A DNA stretch of 41,677 nucleotides from Robiginitomaculum sp. (GTDB lineage: Bacteria > Pseudomonadota > Alphaproteobacteria > Caulobacterales > Maricaulaceae). This document shows, piece after piece, positions 19,189-26,372 of the stretch (within the stretch, counting starts at the first letter, position 1; each line of letters begins with the position of its first letter). A program made the translations under genes and the position numbers. The stretch covers positions 1 to 41,677 of the forward strand of contig JALSHE010000104.1 of NCBI GenBank assembly GCA_026982415.1, in the 5' to 3' direction. The notes under the pieces were generated by a model. That model saw only the letters and a list, made by a program, of their open reading frames with translations. It was not told where the DNA came from and did not search any database.

Positions 19189-19491
19189 CTAATCTGCGTT
19201 TTGACCAAACGCCTCACCCAGTATATCGGCATAGAGCGCCCGTGCTTCGCATACTGGCCCGCGCCTTTCCCCGAGGTTCAAGACTTCAATTTGGATTAGT
19301 TTATCATAAGCGGTAAATGTCAATTGGTCACCGATATGTACTTCACTATGGGGCTTTCGCACACGAAAAACCTGCCCGCCGCGAAATATCCGCACTTTGC
19401 CGCTCGATATACAACGAGCCGACAAAATACGGGTCTTAAAAAACCGGGCGCGCCACAACCATATATCCAGCCTTACCCCATCTTCACTCAA
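19189..19491 (-). CDS. S4-domain RNA-binding protein, HslR-like
   Basis: A 100-residue single S4 domain protein: VRLDIWLWRARFFKTRILSARCISSGKVRIFRGGQVFRVRKPHSEVHIGDQLTF. This is the pattern of Hsp15 (HslR), which in E. coli binds stalled 50S subunits carrying nascent chains and helps recycle them. The basic C-terminal tail of E. coli Hsp15 is missing, as in many alphaproteobacterial copies. The start overlaps the stop of the upstream helicase gene by four bases (ATGA), so the two are translationally coupled. Confidence 0.88.
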   Translation of the reverse strand: MSEDGVRLDIWLWRARFFKTRILSARCISSGKVRIFRGGQVFRVRKPHSEVHIGDQLTFTAYDKLIQIEVLNLGERRGPVCEARALYADILGEAFGQNAD

Positions 19492-22400
19492 GTTTTTTTA
19501 TCCTTGGGCTTAACTTTGTTTTCGGGTTTGGTTTTAGTTGTAGCTTTAGCTTTGGGTTTAGCTTTGGGCTTATCAGCTTTTGGTTCGTCAAAATTTAAAC
19601 CCGCAAGTGCTGCAAACGGCGAAGCGGACGGCGGCATAGCGCCCCCTTGTTTAGGTGGCGCCCATGTTGTCTGTGTCGGCCTACCGGGTGGCTTACGGCG
19701 CTTGTTTTGTCGTTTTTTCTGGCCTTGCTCACTCTGACCAGCCTTGCTTCCAGCAGCTTGTTGAGTTGCGGAAGCAAAATCCGCATAACCCGACAAATTA
19801 TTACGCCGCGCTGGTTTTCGCCTTTGCGGCCTTCGGTTTTGGGTAGACACGTCTTTATCGGGATCATTGCTACCATGTTTGGATGGTCTATAGCGCGACG
19901 GTGGTTTTACGGCACGGCCATATGCCCACAATTCAAGATGTGTTTGAAAAATCGGGTTACCCTCATCGTCTTCTTCCGGCTTGGCGACATGGTCATTTAA
20001 TATAATCAACCGATGGCGTTTGCGTTTAGGTATATAGTCAGGATGGGTTTTATCGGTGGTTGGTTCTGGTTTGTTTTGCAGTACAGGTGGAAAATCATCG
20101 GGGTTAATATCGCCGATTTCTTTGGCTTTTAGGATTGCGTCCCTGCGGGCGAAATAAGCCAATACATATTTCTTGTGTGCCTCTGCCTCTGCTTCGGTAA
20201 ATGCTTGTGTGGTTTTGCGGTATTTAAGTGCCACCAAAATTTCTTCAAAATCTTCGAAAGAACATCCTAACAAAGACAGCATTTCTTTTTTAATGACAAA
20301 ACGCCCATCTTCACGCTCTTTACGCGCCTGAAACAACATTTTGGCAAGACGGTTCATAATATCAAAACGGATAATGCGCGGGCCGCGCCGCGTATACCCC
20401 GCCATTTGTAAAACTTCTTCATAAAAACCGGCTTGGGAGGGCATGGAAGTCATACCATTTTTGGGCAAAAACGGTTGACTTGAGCGTTGCCCTTCCGCAG
20501 TTTTTTCCCAAGCATAAACATATAAAAGACTGAGCAAACGCGCAGGCGCCGGCTTCATCAAGTCACGCATATAAACATAATAAAAACCGAACACACCGCC
20601 TAGGCTGACAATATAATTTATCGCGGTGCTTTCGGTAGACTTAACAATTTTAGCATGAGCACGCTTATCTAACGTACCGTAGTTTTCATACATAATATGC
20701 GCCATAGCGCGGGCGTCTTTATAGGATGTCGGGCTTTCGGCGAATTCACGCAGGGCAAATATACAGCCGAGTTTTTGTGTTATCTCAAGGCGTATGAAAT
20801 CGGCTAGGCGGCCTATGGCACTATCACGTAATATTTGAGAACCAAGTTCTCCGCACAGCAATTCCACCTTGGGTTTGAGCATGCTGTCGCCTCTTGCCAA
20901 TTTGCCAATAGGTGCATCGTTCCAAATAAATTCACCTTGATCAGATAAGCCGATAGCACCTTGGCCAGAGCCTGCTATTTGCATCAGGCGTCTATCGATT
21001 TCTGGTGTTAAAGACTGGCTGGCGGTTTGCTTGATAGCTTTCGCTTCAAGTTCGCTTTCAGTATCCACAGGCGTAAAGACAAGACCGTTAAGTGTACCGA
21101 GTATTTGTCCGGCGCAGACGACCTGTCCTTCTGATGTGACAGTTGCGTTCATATTGGCTTTTTCTCCTATTCCCTTTAACAATATACTGGTGCGTGCATC
21201 AACAAAGCGGTCGACCAATTTATTGTGTAGCGCATCTGATAGCCTGTGTTCAACAGTTTGTGCTAGTTTTACCCAGTCTTTTTCTGGCAATACCCAATCC
21301 AGTTTATGGGCTATATAAGTCCACGTGCGAATATTGGCCAGTCTTGATGACAACTTTTCTACCGACCCGCCGATTTCGTCCAACCGTGAAATATTGCGTC
21401 GCATATAGCTGTCCGGTAATTTTCCGTTGTTCCTGTATAAATGCGTATGTACATCTTCCAGTAAACGGGCGTGAGCTTCCGGGCCGAGATCTGGGAAATC
21501 AGGTATTTGGCAGACATCCCAAAGCAGTTTCACGTCATGAGCATTATGAATATTGTCTTCAATATCATGGGTGTCGCACAGACGCGACAAAGCTGCCTCA
21601 TCTGCGGCAGGTGCAATTCGGCGCAGACCTTTTAGTTTTGGCGGCGTAGCCAAACTATGTTTCAAAGCTTCAACGGTCGAAAAATCAAGCGCAGTTGAAC
21701 GCCATTCCGCATAGCGTTCGGGCATGAACGCATTGTTCTCAATACGGGCAATCATATCGTCGTCCAGAGGTAAACACGAACCCGTAGTACCAAAACTACC
21801 ATCATTGCGGAAGCGCCCTGCCCGCCCGGCAATTTGCGCCGTCTCTGCTGCCGTCAAATAACGCCGCCGCTCCCCGTCAAATTTACGTAGGGACGCGAAT
21901 GCAACATGATCCGCATCTAGGTTGAGGCCCATACCAATGGCATCGGTTGCCACCATATAATCGACCTCGCCCGATTGGTAGAGAGCTGCCTGTGCATTAC
22001 GTGTGCGCGGGCTTAAACTACCCATGACCAAAGCTGCGCCGCCGTAATTGCGCCGCATCAATTCAGCCAGTGCATACACCTCACCAGCCGAGAACGCCAC
22101 GACCACGCTGCGCTTGGGCAAGCGGGAAAGCTTTGTATGGCCTACATAGGATAAAACCGAGAACCGTTCGCGGGTCATGAAACGGGCGTCTGGCACCAAA
22201 GCTTCTATCAAGGGGCGCGCCGTATTTGCACCCAGTAGTAATGTTTCTTCCGTCCCTCTTGCGTGGAGCATACGGTCAGTGAACACGTGACCGCGTTCTT
22301 TGTGAGCGATCATTTGCACTTCGTCGATAACCACGCTGGCAAATTTACCGGCGCGTATATCGGTCATAGGCATGGCTTCTGCGGTGCAAATAAGATACCG

Positions 22401-22616
22401 TGCATGGGGCGGTACGATTTTTTCTTCCCCGGTTATCAAAGCACAAGAAGCTTCGCCTTTTTCGCGCACAGCCCGTTCGTAAACTTCCCGCGCCAACAAA
22501 CGCAGCGGCAAGCCAATAACACCGCTCGCACGTGCCAGCATGCGCTCGACCGCATAGTGGGTTTTGCCCGTATTGGTGCCGCCCAGTACGGCGGTGATGG
22601 TTGGTTTAAACTGCAT
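19488..22616 (-). CDS. Suv3-like superfamily 2 RNA helicase with long basic C-terminal tail
   Basis: A 1042-residue helicase resembling mitochondrial degradosome helicase Suv3, common in alphaproteobacteria. Walker A is GGTNTGKT (12-19), Walker B is VIDEVQM (D98-E99-V100-Q101), SFSAGEVYAL-like motif IV reads VVAFSAGEVYALAEL, and motif VI is AQIAGRAGRF. The N-terminal RecA domains cover about residues 1-290; a middle region matches the Suv3-type C-terminal helicase part. The last about 180 residues are low complexity, rich in Lys, Pro, Arg and Ala (GRAVKPPSRYRPSKHGSN then KPKAKPKAKATTKTK), likely disordered and RNA-binding. It starts 46 bp from the divergent sixA gene. It probably unwinds structured RNA for an exonuclease; the partner is not in view. 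Confidence 0.9.
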   Translation of the reverse strand: MQFKPTITAVLGGTNTGKTHYAVERMLARASGVIGLPLRLLAREVYERAVREKGEASCALITGEEKIVPPHARYLICTAEAMPMTDIRAGKFASVVIDEVQMIAHKERGHVFTDRMLHARGTEETLLLGANTARPLIEALVPDARFMTRERFSVLSYVGHTKLSRLPKRSVVVAFSAGEVYALAELMRRNYGGAALVMGSLSPRTRNAQAALYQSGEVDYMVATDAIGMGLNLDADHVAFASLRKFDGERRRYLTAAETAQIAGRAGRFRNDGSFGTTGSCLPLDDDMIARIENNAFMPERYAEWRSTALDFSTVEALKHSLATPPKLKGLRRIAPAADEAALSRLCDTHDIEDNIHNAHDVKLLWDVCQIPDFPDLGPEAHARLLEDVHTHLYRNNGKLPDSYMRRNISRLDEIGGSVEKLSSRLANIRTWTYIAHKLDWVLPEKDWVKLAQTVEHRLSDALHNKLVDRFVDARTSILLKGIGEKANMNATVTSEGQVVCAGQILGTLNGLVFTPVDTESELEAKAIKQTASQSLTPEIDRRLMQIAGSGQGAIGLSDQGEFIWNDAPIGKLARGDSMLKPKVELLCGELGSQILRDSAIGRLADFIRLEITQKLGCIFALREFAESPTSYKDARAMAHIMYENYGTLDKRAHAKIVKSTESTAINYIVSLGGVFGFYYVYMRDLMKPAPARLLSLLYVYAWEKTAEGQRSSQPFLPKNGMTSMPSQAGFYEEVLQMAGYTRRGPRIIRFDIMNRLAKMLFQARKEREDGRFVIKKEMLSLLGCSFEDFEEILVALKYRKTTQAFTEAEAEAHKKYVLAYFARRDAILKAKEIGDINPDDFPPVLQNKPEPTTDKTHPDYIPKRKRHRLIILNDHVAKPEEDDEGNPIFQTHLELWAYGRAVKPPSRYRPSKHGSNDPDKDVSTQNRRPQRRKPARRNNLSGYADFASATQQAAGSKAGQSEQGQKKRQNKRRKPPGRPTQTTWAPPKQGGAMPPSASPFAALAGLNFDEPKADKPKAKPKAKATTKTKPENKVKPKDKKT

Positions 22617-23170: not shown

Positions 23171-23196
23171 CCAAAAAAACGGGCCAAAAAAACGGG
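23171..23196 (-). repeat. Tandem 13-bp duplication including a terminator arm
   Basis: CCAAAAAAACGGG occurs twice in perfect tandem (23171-23183 and 23184-23196). On the minus strand each copy supplies a CCCG(T)7 segment, that is, the 3' arm plus T-tract of the rpsP terminator. The duplication therefore provides two alternative terminator ends. Confidence 0.8.
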
Positions 23197-23216
23197 CAAG
23201 ATTTCTCCCGCCCGTC
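23186..23216 (-). terminator. Intrinsic terminator after rpsP
   Basis: On the minus strand ACGGGC (from 23215 down to 23210) pairs with GCCCGT (23197-23192), followed by a seven-base T-run. A second GCCCG(T)7 directly downstream can pair instead. It ends the ffh-rpsP transcript 35 bases after the rpsP stop. Confidence 0.85.
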
Positions 23217-23250: not shown

Positions 23251-23781
23251 TTAGTCTGCTGGTTTTTCTTCTGGCGTAGCTTCAGCAGCTGGAGCGTCCT
23301 CTTTAGGCGCTTCCTCTTTAGGCGCAGCTTTGGCTTCTGCAGCAGCAACTTTTTCAGCTTCTGCGGCTTCGGCGGCGGCGACTTTGGCAGCGGCGGCAGC
23401 TTCTTTCGCGGCTTCTTTAGCTTCGATTTCAGCGGCTTTGCGGGCTTCTTCTTTGCCTTTGCGAGCTTCTATTAGTTCGAGAGCTTTGGCGCCGGGCTTG
23501 CCTTTAATCGGGTTATTGCCGTGCTTCCATTCCCACAGACCAGCAGCGCCCAAGAAACGAGCTACGCGTTCTGTTGGACGTGCGCCTTTGGCCAGCCAAG
23601 CTTTGGCTTTCTCTGGGTCAATATGTACGCGGTTCTCGTCAGTTTTTGCGAGCAACGGGTTATAGTGACCAATATGGTCGATATAGCGGCCATCGCGCGG
23701 CGAGCGGGCATCGGCCACAACAACGCGGTAGTAAGGACGTTTTTTAGACCCGTGACGAGCCAGTCTGATTTTAAGTGCCAT
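23251..23781 (-). CDS. rpsP: Ribosomal protein S16 with long Ala/Glu/Lys-rich C-terminal tail
   Basis: A small-subunit ribosomal protein. The conserved core is residues 1-80: [70 protein letters not shown]. coli S16 is 82 residues; this protein is 176. After about residue 110 the chain is a repeat-like helix of Ala, Glu and Lys ([20 protein letters not shown]) ending in an acidic, Pro-containing stretch. Alphaproteobacterial S16 proteins often have extensions, but this is at the long end. It follows ffh by 39 bp in the same operon. The rimM-trmD-rplS genes that usually follow rpsP are absent here; a terminator comes instead. Confidence 0.97.
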
Positions 23782-23820: not shown

Positions 23821-25389
23821 TTATTTCTTCTTTGGGGAACCACCGAGACCCGGTAATCCGCCACCAAGTCCAGGGAGGCCTTTACCACCCATCGCTTTTC
23901 CTAGGCCAGGTAATCCTTTAGGCAGGCTGCCGCCGCCCATTTTCTTTTGCATATCTTCGAGCATTTTCGGATCCATATCCGGCAGGCCACCGCCCATGCC
24001 TCCCTTAGGCATTCCGCCGCCCATTCCGCCTCCCATGGCATTCATCATGCCGCGCATACCGCCTTTGCCCATTTTTTTCATCATATCAGACATGCCCCGG
24101 TGCATTTTCAGCAGCTTGTTAACATCCGCCACACTCATGCCCGAACCCGCCGCAATGCGTTTCTTGCGCGATGCTTTAATCAGTTTCGGGTGAGTGCGCT
24201 CATAGGGCGTCATGGAGAAAATAATCGCCTGTTGCCGCGCCAAAAGCTTATTATCAACCCCGCCCATTTGGTCGACGGCCTTGCGCATTTTGCCCATGCC
24301 CGGCATTAATTTCATCAGGCCGCCCATGCCGCCCATTTTGTTAATTTGCCCAAGCTGTTTAGCGAGGTCGTCCAAGTCGAACGATCCTTTCTCCATTTTT
24401 TTCTGGAGTGCGGCGGCTTCTTTTTCGTCGATAATATCGGTGGCTTTTTCCACCAAGGCAACAATATCGCCTTGACCGAGAATGCGCCCAGCAATCCGTT
24501 CCGCGTCAAATACTTCCAGCCCGTCAAGCTTCTCGCCTGTACCCAGAAACTTAATCGGTAGGCCTGTAACCGCCCGCATAGACAACGCCGCACCGCCGCG
24601 ACCATCACCATCAATCCGTGTCAGGATTAGACCCGTGAGCGGTAAGCGGTCATTAAAACGCCGCGCCGTCTCCACCGCATCTTGTCCGGTTAGAGCATCG
24701 GCAATGAGGAGCGTTTCGACCGGTTTGGCCAGTTCCGCGACGCTAGCCACTTCGTCCATCAACTCGTCGTCGAGCGTGGTGCGACCAGCCGTATCAAGGA
24801 ACACAACATCATAACCCCCGAGCTTGCCCTCTTTCATTGCTCGTTTGGTGATTTGAATTACATCTTCACCTTTGACGATTGGCAAGAAGCCGACCCCGGC
24901 TTGTTCCGCCAAAATACCGAGCTGCTCCATAGCGGCTGGACGGCGTGTATCGAGAGAAGCCAGTAATACTTTCTTCTTGGCTTTGGTGCGCAGGAATAAT
25001 CCGAGCTTGCCCGATGTGGTGGTTTTACCAGAACCTTGTAGGCCTGCCATCAGGATGAAAGCTGGTGGGCGGACACTTAAATTCAAATGAGAGGACGCCG
25101 GAGGTTCTTCACCTTCTTCGACCTTACCGCCGAGCATTTCCACCAAACCGTCATGGACGATTTTGATGATTTGCTCACCGGGTTTAACCGCGCGGATAAC
25201 TTTCTCGCCGACGGCTTCTTCGCGTATTTGTGTGATGAAGTCTTTGACAACGGGCAGTGCTACATCGGCCTCAAGCAGAGCAATGCGAATTTCGCGCATA
25301 GCGGCACTAACGTCCTTCTCGGAAAGGGCGCCGCGTCCGGTTAATGTGTCAAATACGCCGCCGAGGCGGTCGCTTAAGGCTTCAAACAT
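23821..25389 (-). CDS. ffh: Signal recognition particle protein Ffh
   Basis: The SRP GTPase that binds 4.5S RNA and signal sequences and delivers ribosomes to FtsY at the inner membrane. An N domain (1-90) is followed by the G domain with GLQGSGKT (116-123), DTRRPAAMEQL, DTAGR and TRIDGDGRGGAALS. The methionine-rich M domain runs from about 330 (FDLDDLAKQLGQINKMGGMGGLMKLMPG) through IAAGSGMSVADVNKLLKMH, the 4.5S RNA-binding helix region. The C-terminal 70-80 residues are Gly/Met-rich, including three GLPGLG repeats and a final KKK, longer than in E. coli (453 aa against 522 here). The likely Shine-Dalgarno is AGAAG. It is preceded by a promoter, a short RNA and a terminator-like hairpin. Confidence 0.97.
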   Translation of the reverse strand: MFEALSDRLGGVFDTLTGRGALSEKDVSAAMREIRIALLEADVALPVVKDFITQIREEAVGEKVIRAVKPGEQIIKIVHDGLVEMLGGKVEEGEEPPASSHLNLSVRPPAFILMAGLQGSGKTTTSGKLGLFLRTKAKKKVLLASLDTRRPAAMEQLGILAEQAGVGFLPIVKGEDVIQITKRAMKEGKLGGYDVVFLDTAGRTTLDDELMDEVASVAELAKPVETLLIADALTGQDAVETARRFNDRLPLTGLILTRIDGDGRGGAALSMRAVTGLPIKFLGTGEKLDGLEVFDAERIAGRILGQGDIVALVEKATDIIDEKEAAALQKKMEKGSFDLDDLAKQLGQINKMGGMGGLMKLMPGMGKMRKAVDQMGGVDNKLLARQQAIIFSMTPYERTHPKLIKASRKKRIAAGSGMSVADVNKLLKMHRGMSDMMKKMGKGGMRGMMNAMGGGMGGGMPKGGMGGGLPDMDPKMLEDMQKKMGGGSLPKGLPGLGKAMGGKGLPGLGGGLPGLGGSPKKK

Positions 25390-25424
25390 AAATAAGTTCT
25401 TCTAGTTATTCCGTTTTCCCATAC

Positions 25425-25462
25425 AAAAAAGACCCCGGTGAACATATAATGTCGACCGGAGG
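25425..25462 (-). terminator. Terminator-like hairpin in the ffh leader
   Basis: On the minus strand CTCCGGT (25461-25455) pairs with ACCGGGG (25439-25433, one G-U), and ACAT/ATGT pair further in. Six T residues follow (25430-25425). The structure lies 35 bases before the ffh start, so it would end a short upstream RNA or attenuate ffh. Confidence 0.7.
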
Positions 25463-25546
25463 ACCCTGCTTATATCGTCCATACCCAACAAGGGAAATGC
25501 ATGGTGTCGCATAAGTCAGAGCGCAATTTCAGTTGCGCATAGGATT
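25425..25546 (-). ncRNA. Putative short RNA or attenuated leader upstream of ffh
   Basis: A near-consensus promoter (25553-25581) and a terminator-like hairpin with T6 (25425-25462) delimit a predicted transcript of about 120 nt on the minus strand. Near its 5' end GCGCAA and TTGCGC form a 6-bp hairpin with loop CTGAAA (25521-25538); GGAC and GTCC can form another before the terminator. It lacks the GGAAG/AGCAGC apical sequences of 4.5S RNA, so it is not the SRP RNA despite its position. It could be an independent small RNA or an ffh leader with premature termination. I do not recognise the family. Confidence 0.45.
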
Positions 25547-25552
25547 GCGCGG

Positions 25553-25581
25553 CTTATAGGGGCGGGAATTTAGAGTGTCAA
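25553..25581 (-). promoter_or_regulatory. Strong sigma-70 type promoter upstream of ffh
   Basis: On the minus strand TTGACA (25581-25576), a 17-bp spacer, and TATAAG (25558-25553). This is the best promoter match in the window. It drives the short RNA and, by read-through of the terminator-like hairpin, ffh-rpsP. Confidence 0.8.
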
Positions 25582-25700: not shown

Positions 25701-26372
25701 CTAAAACAACTGCCCTTGTTTGAATTGGGGCATGTATTTCGCGGCAAAACTCCGCGTTACATTGACCTTTTCAGTTGCGGCTTGCTTGTCTAAATCGCGG
25801 ATGAGAGCGCGGAGGCTGTCAACCGATCTGTCTGCATGGACAAGCATATAATCTATGAGACTATCCGAAACCTTTAGACCTCTATCCAGAAATAATTTGG
25901 TGATAATAGCGCTCAGTAAGTCTTCATCCGGTTCTTGAATGCGGGCGATCTGGACGTTCTTTAAGCGCGAATGCAGATCAGGCAATTGTACATTCCATAC
26001 GGACGGCACGGTTTGATCACTCAGCAAAAGTGCCTTTAATTCTCCGGTTATGGTCAGGTTGATCAAGGTGAACAGGGTGTATTCATCTGCGTTGGATGCA
26101 TTGTCAATCCAGAGCGCCCTGCCCCGATAATCGCGTCTTGGAACAAATCCATTGCCACCATCCAAACTGATGGCCTGTTGGCTTTCGGCCCAAATATGGC
26201 CAAGATGCGTTTTACCGCACCCCTTGGGGCCAATGACGGCTAGTATATGATTGGCCCAGTTTTCTGTATCTGCCAGTGCCGTGACGGCCTCAACGTTAGA
26301 AACGCCGTGTACAAATGCGCCGGCGCTATTGTCCGGATCCAAAATTAAATCTAGCGGGAATTGTCTACTCAT
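25701..26372 (-). CDS. hdaA: Hda-type regulator of DnaA (HdaA)
   Basis: A DnaA-like AAA protein that, bound to the sliding clamp, stimulates ATP hydrolysis by DnaA after initiation. At 223 residues it has only the AAA part. Walker A is GPKGCGKTHL (48-57), the Walker B position reads ALWIDNAS, and the sensor region includes LPDLHSRLKNVQIARIQEPDEDLLSAII. The N-terminus MSRQFPLDL contains the expected clamp-binding hexapeptide QFPLDL (residues 4-9). The last five residues, QGQLF, fit the other clamp-binding form Q-x-x-L-F. It follows the DUF2066 gene by 36 bp on the same strand, next to divergent purMN, an arrangement I associate with alphaproteobacterial hdaA. Confidence 0.9.
   Translation of the reverse strand: MSRQFPLDLILDPDNSAGAFVHGVSNVEAVTALADTENWANHILAVIGPKGCGKTHLGHIWAESQQAISLDGGNGFVPRRDYRGRALWIDNASNADEYTLFTLINLTITGELKALLLSDQTVPSVWNVQLPDLHSRLKNVQIARIQEPDEDLLSAIITKLFLDRGLKVSDSLIDYMLVHADRSVDSLRALIRDLDKQAATEKVNVTRSFAAKYMPQFKQGQLF

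Follow-up and report, generated by a model that had tools for sequence, protein, structure and literature searches.

A leader RNA before ffh and rpsP in Alphaproteobacteria that is related to the ffh motif and may answer to ribosomal protein S16

The ffh–rpsP unit and its leader

The window analysed here, a stretch of 41,677 nucleotides from Robiginitomaculum sp., carries on its minus strand ffh, which encodes the SRP protein, followed by rpsP, which encodes ribosomal protein S16 and starts 43 nt past the ffh match. Upstream of ffh lies a leader made up of a promoter, three hairpins (P1, P2 and P3) and a short tail. From the end of the unit back to the promoter, the features are as follows.

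23191–23216, minus strand: terminator-like hairpin and T-run after rpsP, found by a consensus scan (11-pair stem, then TTTTT)
23251–23781, minus strand: rpsP (ribosomal protein S16), second gene of the unit (Pfam PF00886, 90.8 bits)
23821–25389, minus strand: ffh, with SRP54 GTPase and signal-peptide-binding domains (Pfam PF00448, PF02978, PF02881)
25419–25432, minus strand: tail UCUUUUUUGUAUGG, at a fixed spacing after P3 and conserved to about +14 in a profile over 89 sequences
25433–25461, minus strand: hairpin P3, GC-rich, with a C25454·C25440 mismatch and G25453·U25441; classed as a diverged copy of the ffh motif RF01793
25465–25520, minus strand: hairpin P2, long, with a variable tip; three helices 95–100% paired in 46 family sequences
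25521–25538, minus strand: hairpin P1, GCGCAA-CUGAAA-UUGCGC, 6 bp; 97.1% of cells paired in 46 family sequences
25553–25558, minus strand: −10 element TATAAG, read from the sequence, with a 17-nt spacer from the −35 element
25576–25581, minus strand: −35 element TTGACA, read from the sequence; TTGAC at −35 in 68 of 71 elements placed by the model R1 (described below)

The hairpin at 23191–23216 is the probable end of the ffh–rpsP unit. The S16 of the window has 176 amino acids; its Pfam domain spans residues 9–70 and is followed by an extended C-terminal tail in which Ala, Glu and Lys abound. Beyond the unit, a 1042-residue helicase with a Suv3-type DEXQ-box domain (Pfam PF22527) is encoded at 19488–22616 on the minus strand; Suv3-type helicases are best known from mitochondria. 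Upstream of the leader, an hda-like protein is encoded at 25701–26372, also on the minus strand (Pfam Hda_lid 26.1, just below the cut-off of 27.0). Among the relatives first checked, the hda protein occurred solely in the window's own locus, and the idea that the element is a passenger of hda was rejected on that ground.

A first-pass annotation of this DNA had named TTGACA-17-TATAAG the best promoter of the window, and it is indeed the sole site there with 11 of 12 promoter matches. Since randomised copies of the window hold 0.9 such sites on average, the match alone lies within chance, and the evidence beyond chance comes from its conservation (see below). Transcription is predicted to start near 25546, about 7 nt past the −10 element and about 8 nt before P1. 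The internal 6-bp hairpin, the final hairpin with its T6 (25430–25425, minus strand) and the ATG of ffh 35 nt further on, at 25389, all lie where that annotation had placed them. When the fold of the leader RNA was compared with shuffles, z was −3.05. The stem of P3 is broken by the C·C mismatch in the window's copy, which is probably why the consensus terminator scan omits it.

As the annotation had also held, the leader is not 4.5S RNA. Both 4.5S RNA and 6S RNA were considered as identities for it and rejected, each being located on another contig: 4.5S RNA at G000:C65 (57.7 bits, the sole RF00169 match in the genome) and 6S RNA at G000:C55 (RF00013, 54.5 bits). RF00169 gave no match at the leader itself, so that an SRP context is what leader and 4.5S RNA have in common. 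As for mimicry of SRP RNA, by eye the P3 of some relatives resembles a loop of the genome's own 4.5S RNA; that of the window does so less.

Conservation of the hairpins and kinship with the ffh motif

When the 261-nt region was compared by blastn with 61 related genomes, 35 gave a match at E <= 1. Alignments were long and good for most members of the genus and weaker for part of the family; many of the remaining matches were short and attributable to chance. In all 16 relatives first fetched, ffh lay just 3' of the element. An alignment of 46 family sequences, the window included (A1), was picked partly for TTGAC, with the two C's of P3 also a criterion. It left out loci whose P3 was not caught by a regular expression or that had no TTGAC 70–150 nt before P3, as well as duplicates, rows containing N and some chosen exclusions (L058, L066, L069, L070, L074 and L093). 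Across the three hairpins, 98.3% of cells in this alignment are paired, against 87.5% in shuffles, and there are 152 two-sided changes against 32. The covariance search in relatives that the first-pass annotation had proposed shows covariation in all three hairpins. By hairpin, two-sided changes occur in 1 of the 6 pairs of P1 (A-U to G-C) and in 9 of the 13 pairs of P2.

Because TTGAC is present in A1 partly by construction, the promoter was recounted on elements placed, with the promoter disregarded, by R1, a covariance model built from family sequences only. R1 matches 132 of 200 genomes of the window's order at E <= 0.01 and 42 of 289 genomes of the class at E <= 0.001. Among 71 distinct elements placed in this way, the best −35 position holds TTGAC in 68 and the full TTGACA in 49, and the total promoter match is at least 9 of 12 in 59. 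A spacer of 17 nt scores best in 45 of them, one of 15 nt in 23, one of 18 nt in two and one of 19 nt in one. When the count is confined to 31 of the 46 sequences in A1, with the window among them and TTGAC partly a criterion, the spacer is 17 nt in 30, and the −10 elements end 10–14 nt upstream of P1; the wider set is less uniform. P1 and the long P2 are additions kept in the window's family and, more loosely, in its order. Throughout the class, a stem of at least 8 resembling P2 lies beside P3 in 22 of 88 cases, weakly above the fraction of 0.11 in randomised sequence, and a general P2 was rejected as barely exceeding that level.

P3 has a wider kinship. It is a diverged homologue or variant of the ffh motif (Rfam RF01793), and the first-pass proposal of a new small RNA therefore falls away for this hairpin. 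The motif was described in 2009 as a bulged single hairpin with two conserved cytosines and no known function (PMC2704228). P3 shares with it the internal loop of two C's, the outermost C-G pair and the place before ffh in Alphaproteobacteria (PMC2704228). It differs in that the window's copy lies below the Rfam threshold and is accompanied by P1 and the long P2, and in having G·U beside the C·C where the Rfam consensus has A·C. RF01793 found no match at the Rfam cut-off in the window or its genome, and none in the window even at E <= 10; since the window's copy does not reach the gathering score of 35 bits, we file it as a diverged homologue or variant and not as a member of RF01793 by the Rfam rule.

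The correspondence of place is seen in relatives. RF01793 overlaps the place of P3 in 5 of 20 relatives selected by R1. It does so too at 10 of the 20 ffh loci in another set, picked by the Ffh protein only; in six of those ten (L202, L215, L219, L220, L221 and L222) R1 agrees with the place. With a strict, model-free hairpin scan P3 was detected in 58 of 80 named ffh loci; the controls gave 5 hits in 800 randomised sequences and 4 in 320 coding stretches. A laxer scan detected it in 63 of 80, against 6 of 400.

For a class-wide view we used R2, a model of P3 with short flanks built from 87 sequences (A4). Of 216 upstream regions, 46 had been dropped as having no P3 by the scan, and 2 of the 89 non-redundant P3 regions were dropped for distance or length. 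R2 scores the window's P3 at 49.5 bits (25419–25470). In A4, two-sided changes occur in 10 of the 11 pairs of P3 (198 changes against 58 in shuffles) and the outermost pair is C-G in 87 of 87, pairing having been part of the selection in each case. The C·C mismatch is present in every sequence of A1 and A4 by construction, the C's being among their selection criteria. In A3, which comprises R1 matches and for which the C's were no criterion, it is found in 45 of 49, with C-G in two and the hairpin absent in two weak matches. Among the 89 scanned sequences, the pair beside the C·C is A·C in 40, G·U in 27, G-C in 19 and A-U in 3, other pairs being excluded by the scan.

The 2009 description has the motif in every fully sequenced member of the Rhodobacterales, Sphingomonadales and Rhizobiales, and lists none in Rhodospirillales or Caulobacterales (PMC2704228). 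The window's order is, by inference, the Caulobacterales of GTDB, and one of its families probably includes Caulobacter; NCBI taxonomy assigns Robiginitomaculum to Maricaulales and Hyphomonas to Hyphomonadales, and the nearest named ffh loci are those of Robiginitomaculum, Hellea and Algimonas. RF01793 had no match in 14 named control genomes, Caulobacter vibrioides among them. Over the 289 genomes of the class it gives 58 over the cut-off and 74 at E <= 0.001; R2 matches 178 of the 289 at E <= 0.01. As R2 was partly built from the same loci, its counts are to be read as occurrence and not as an independent test of homology; they are also lower bounds, three new elements having turned up in loci fetched later. 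Within the window's order, RF01793 reaches 11 of 120 genomes at E <= 0.1. The known range of the motif is hence extended to an order where Rfam finds 1 of 120 genomes over the cut-off and R2 finds 114 of 120.

The tail and the question of termination

The tail keeps a fixed spacing from P3, and the distance to the start codon ranges from 24 to 292 nt. In the profile over 89 sequences the most frequent bases are C at +1 (70%) and T at +4 (74%), +10 (79%) and +11 (87%); information from +15 to +20 is 0.01–0.24 bits. A fixed tail combined with a variable start-codon distance suggests regulation while the RNA is being made, and less so an occlusion of the ribosome site.

The window's own copy looks like an intrinsic terminator, in that a GC-rich hairpin is followed by T6 and T occupies 7 of the first 8 tail positions. 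With 8 T in the first 10 bases, it has the most of all 46 family sequences; L003 has 7, and the other 44 have at most 6. An intrinsic terminator, however, takes an unbroken GC stem and a conserved U-tract. Here it is the C·C interruption that is conserved and not the T-run, and the conserved tail extends to about +14. At least 5 T in the first 8 positions are found in merely 26 of 89 non-redundant tails, and at least 6 in 10 of 89. A plain terminator or sRNA was accordingly rejected as the general reading. The suggestion of an attenuator fits the window's species, whose tail could act in this manner, and does not fit the family as a whole.

A broader form of that suggestion is that P3 and a U-rich tail cause partial termination or pausing in response to some other signal, such as the general state of translation or transcription. 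This would go well with the T fraction of the first 8 tail bases (0.45, against 0.23 in the upstream region), with the constant position of the tail relative to P3 and with the T-rich tail of the window. An 'ffH leader RNA' is moreover included among the sRNAs from RNA-seq of Bartonella bacilliformis (PMC7717549). Yet the scarcity of T-rich tails, and the tails of two ffh-less genomes (see below), which begin CAATACTGG and CTATACTTG, count against it, and we consider it unlikely.

It is also conceivable that the leader is a ligand-free structural 5' end, serving mRNA stability or the start of translation. Its conservation at a conserved promoter would be expected on that account; the conserved C·C loop and the fixed spacing of the tail point to recognition beyond stability, and we regard the account as very unlikely. 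A long-range pairing between the 5' end and the tail was evaluated by permutation: with the P1 arm included, swapped halves did as well in 28–121 of 5000 and in 15 of 2000 permutations, and with the P1 arm mostly omitted in 891–2027 of 5000.

Linkage to rpsP and the case for S16

R2 has a single match in the window's own genome. In the class, R1 found 38 matches outside the window's order, of which 26 loci were saved, and all 26 lie just before ffh. Fifty R2 loci of the class (L257–L306) have ffh downstream in 48 cases; of the remaining two, L276 has its ffh cut by the contig end and L301 is a weak second match with no ffh downstream. Such weak matches without ffh downstream (L112, L114, L301 and L320–L324) were taken as chance; the second matches L301 and L320–L324 score 24–31 bits. 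When named ffh loci were chosen by protein alone, an R2 match lay upstream in 79 of 80 (34 of the 80 had been used in building R2), and the 80th, L165, has an R1 match. From the end of the R2 match to ffh these loci measure 4 to 723 nt. The longest distance is that of Hyphomonas sp. ih12 (L180, match at 729–778), where something intervenes.

This placement bears on whether the element is a small RNA that acts in trans and shares the ffh promoter by happenstance. Rfam does type RF01793 as sRNA, and in Sinorhizobium meliloti a candidate of about 120 nt, sm5, was predicted between dapF and ffh, its detection being given as 'not done' (PMC2573895). But nearly all checked loci precede ffh or rpsP, most genomes have one match, and the T-run is not conserved; a trans-acting RNA is to us the least credible of the accounts.

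After ffh comes rpsP in 107 of 110 loci (some genomes being counted twice under two names); L172 and L208 end too soon, and L188 has no rpsP within 1281 nt after ffh. Of the genes rimM, trmD and rplS, none was found in the window, and in G006 trmD and rplS are on the opposite strand. L19 was therefore rejected as a ligand, rplS being missing from the window, and is unlikely to be the general one.

In a few genomes ffh is undetected or lies apart from rpsP. In one family (f54; G564, G345 and G469, from two genera, 95–97% complete), no Ffh was found at E <= 1e-60, and it is possible that the SRP protein has been lost from these 1.4 Mb genomes (loci L344–L346). Here the element stands directly before rpsP at the usual place of ffh, in the order dapF (other strand), element, rpsP; in G345, rimM, trmD and rplS follow rpsP. 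RF01793 scores 48.7, 38.5 and 41.2 bits in G564, G345 and G469, all over the Rfam cut-off, and the outer stem is retained through changes, the leaders of the two genera being 65–70% identical. Deletion of ffh may have stranded the element in front of rpsP as a relic, even if its stem has been preserved through these changes. The S16 of L345 (171 amino acids), like that of the window, has a long repetitive tail. In a genome of another family, G384, ffh and rpsP lie on different contigs; R2 has a match of 21.5 bits, which we take as weak, directly before rpsP and finds no element before ffh.

The association is not universal. Upstream of an rpsP with no preceding ffh, R2 detected no element in four genomes with at least 890 nt of sequence there (G315, G424, G316 and G555), nor in three with 200–410 nt available (G320, G471 and G548). 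Twenty rpsP loci were fetched, 19 from genomes without an earlier R2 match and one (G403) with. Fifteen of them have ffh before rpsP; four of these 15 carry an R2 element, three of them new, and 11 have none that R2 detects, the genomes having all but one been chosen for lacking an R2 match. Among loci tested for rpsP there was no clear case of the element with ffh and without rpsP, and rpsP is the one gene common to all settings examined.

One candidate regulator of an ffh leader is Ffh itself: free Ffh, or the SRP, would bind the leader and lower ffh expression, with rpsP a passenger. The element does precede ffh in the great majority of loci examined, and the 2009 paper considered regulation of ffh possible (PMC2704228). 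Nevertheless, the four genomes in which Ffh is undetected (three) or ffh is elsewhere (one) retain the element in front of rpsP, none was found upstream of the unlinked ffh of G384, G315 and G320, and R2 has no match on the genome's own 4.5S RNA locus (L001). We hold autoregulation by Ffh to be distinctly unlikely. Four genomes in which the element precedes rpsP instead of ffh make S16 a better candidate than Ffh for what the element serves. The regulatory leader of ffh that the first-pass annotation suggested is plausible, while the tuning of SRP protein synthesis is probably not its main point.

We propose instead that the element is an autogenous leader of the ffh–rpsP operon, in which binding of S16 at the C·C loop of P3 is predicted to lower expression of the operon; this is the reading we favour, with reasonable though far from full confidence. 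A sigma-70-type promoter would start an RNA that folds into P1, P2 and P3 with the short conserved tail, and that reads on into ffh and rpsP. Surplus S16 would bind P3 at the C·C loop, and operon expression would go down. Repression might come about through a pause or an end of transcription at the tail, most plausibly where the tail is U-rich, as in the window's species, or else translation might be hindered. The operon holds the gene of the proposed ligand, as the arrangement of rpsP after ffh described above indicates. In E. coli 16S rRNA, where sequence and secondary structure only were compared, a simple scan found no hairpin resembling P3, and the best R2 match was 10.0 bits (E 0.027).

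There is a partial precedent. An S16 leader has been predicted in Flavobacteria, and the same study holds that an operon's leading gene says little about which ligand is bound (PMC7247131). The two cases are alike in the rpsP operon and in S16 as the proposed ligand; the flavobacterial leader belongs to another phylum and lies directly before rpsP and usually rimM (PMC7247131). A 2024 review describes the rpsP operon as one without information on its regulation, which is rare among ribosomal-protein operons (PMC10931766). The main text of the 2009 ffh-motif paper names neither rpsP nor S16 (PMC2704228), and among the open-licence papers listed by a search, none was seen to link the ffh motif with S16.

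On the proposed reading, an RNA family that has been an orphan since 2009 gains a concrete candidate ligand. The 'ffh' RNA may then be misnamed: it would be a leader that answers to S16, is widespread in Alphaproteobacteria and makes production of the SRP protein depend on how much S16, a ribosomal assembly protein, is available. In the window's order its 5' domain is enlarged, and in one streamlined family it would have persisted after ffh was lost; on this wider statement we are evenly divided. If S16 is the ligand, a single leader would link the SRP with the assembly of ribosomes in a large part of a class that counts culturable model organisms among its members, and the protein-targeting machine would be made in step with ribosomes.
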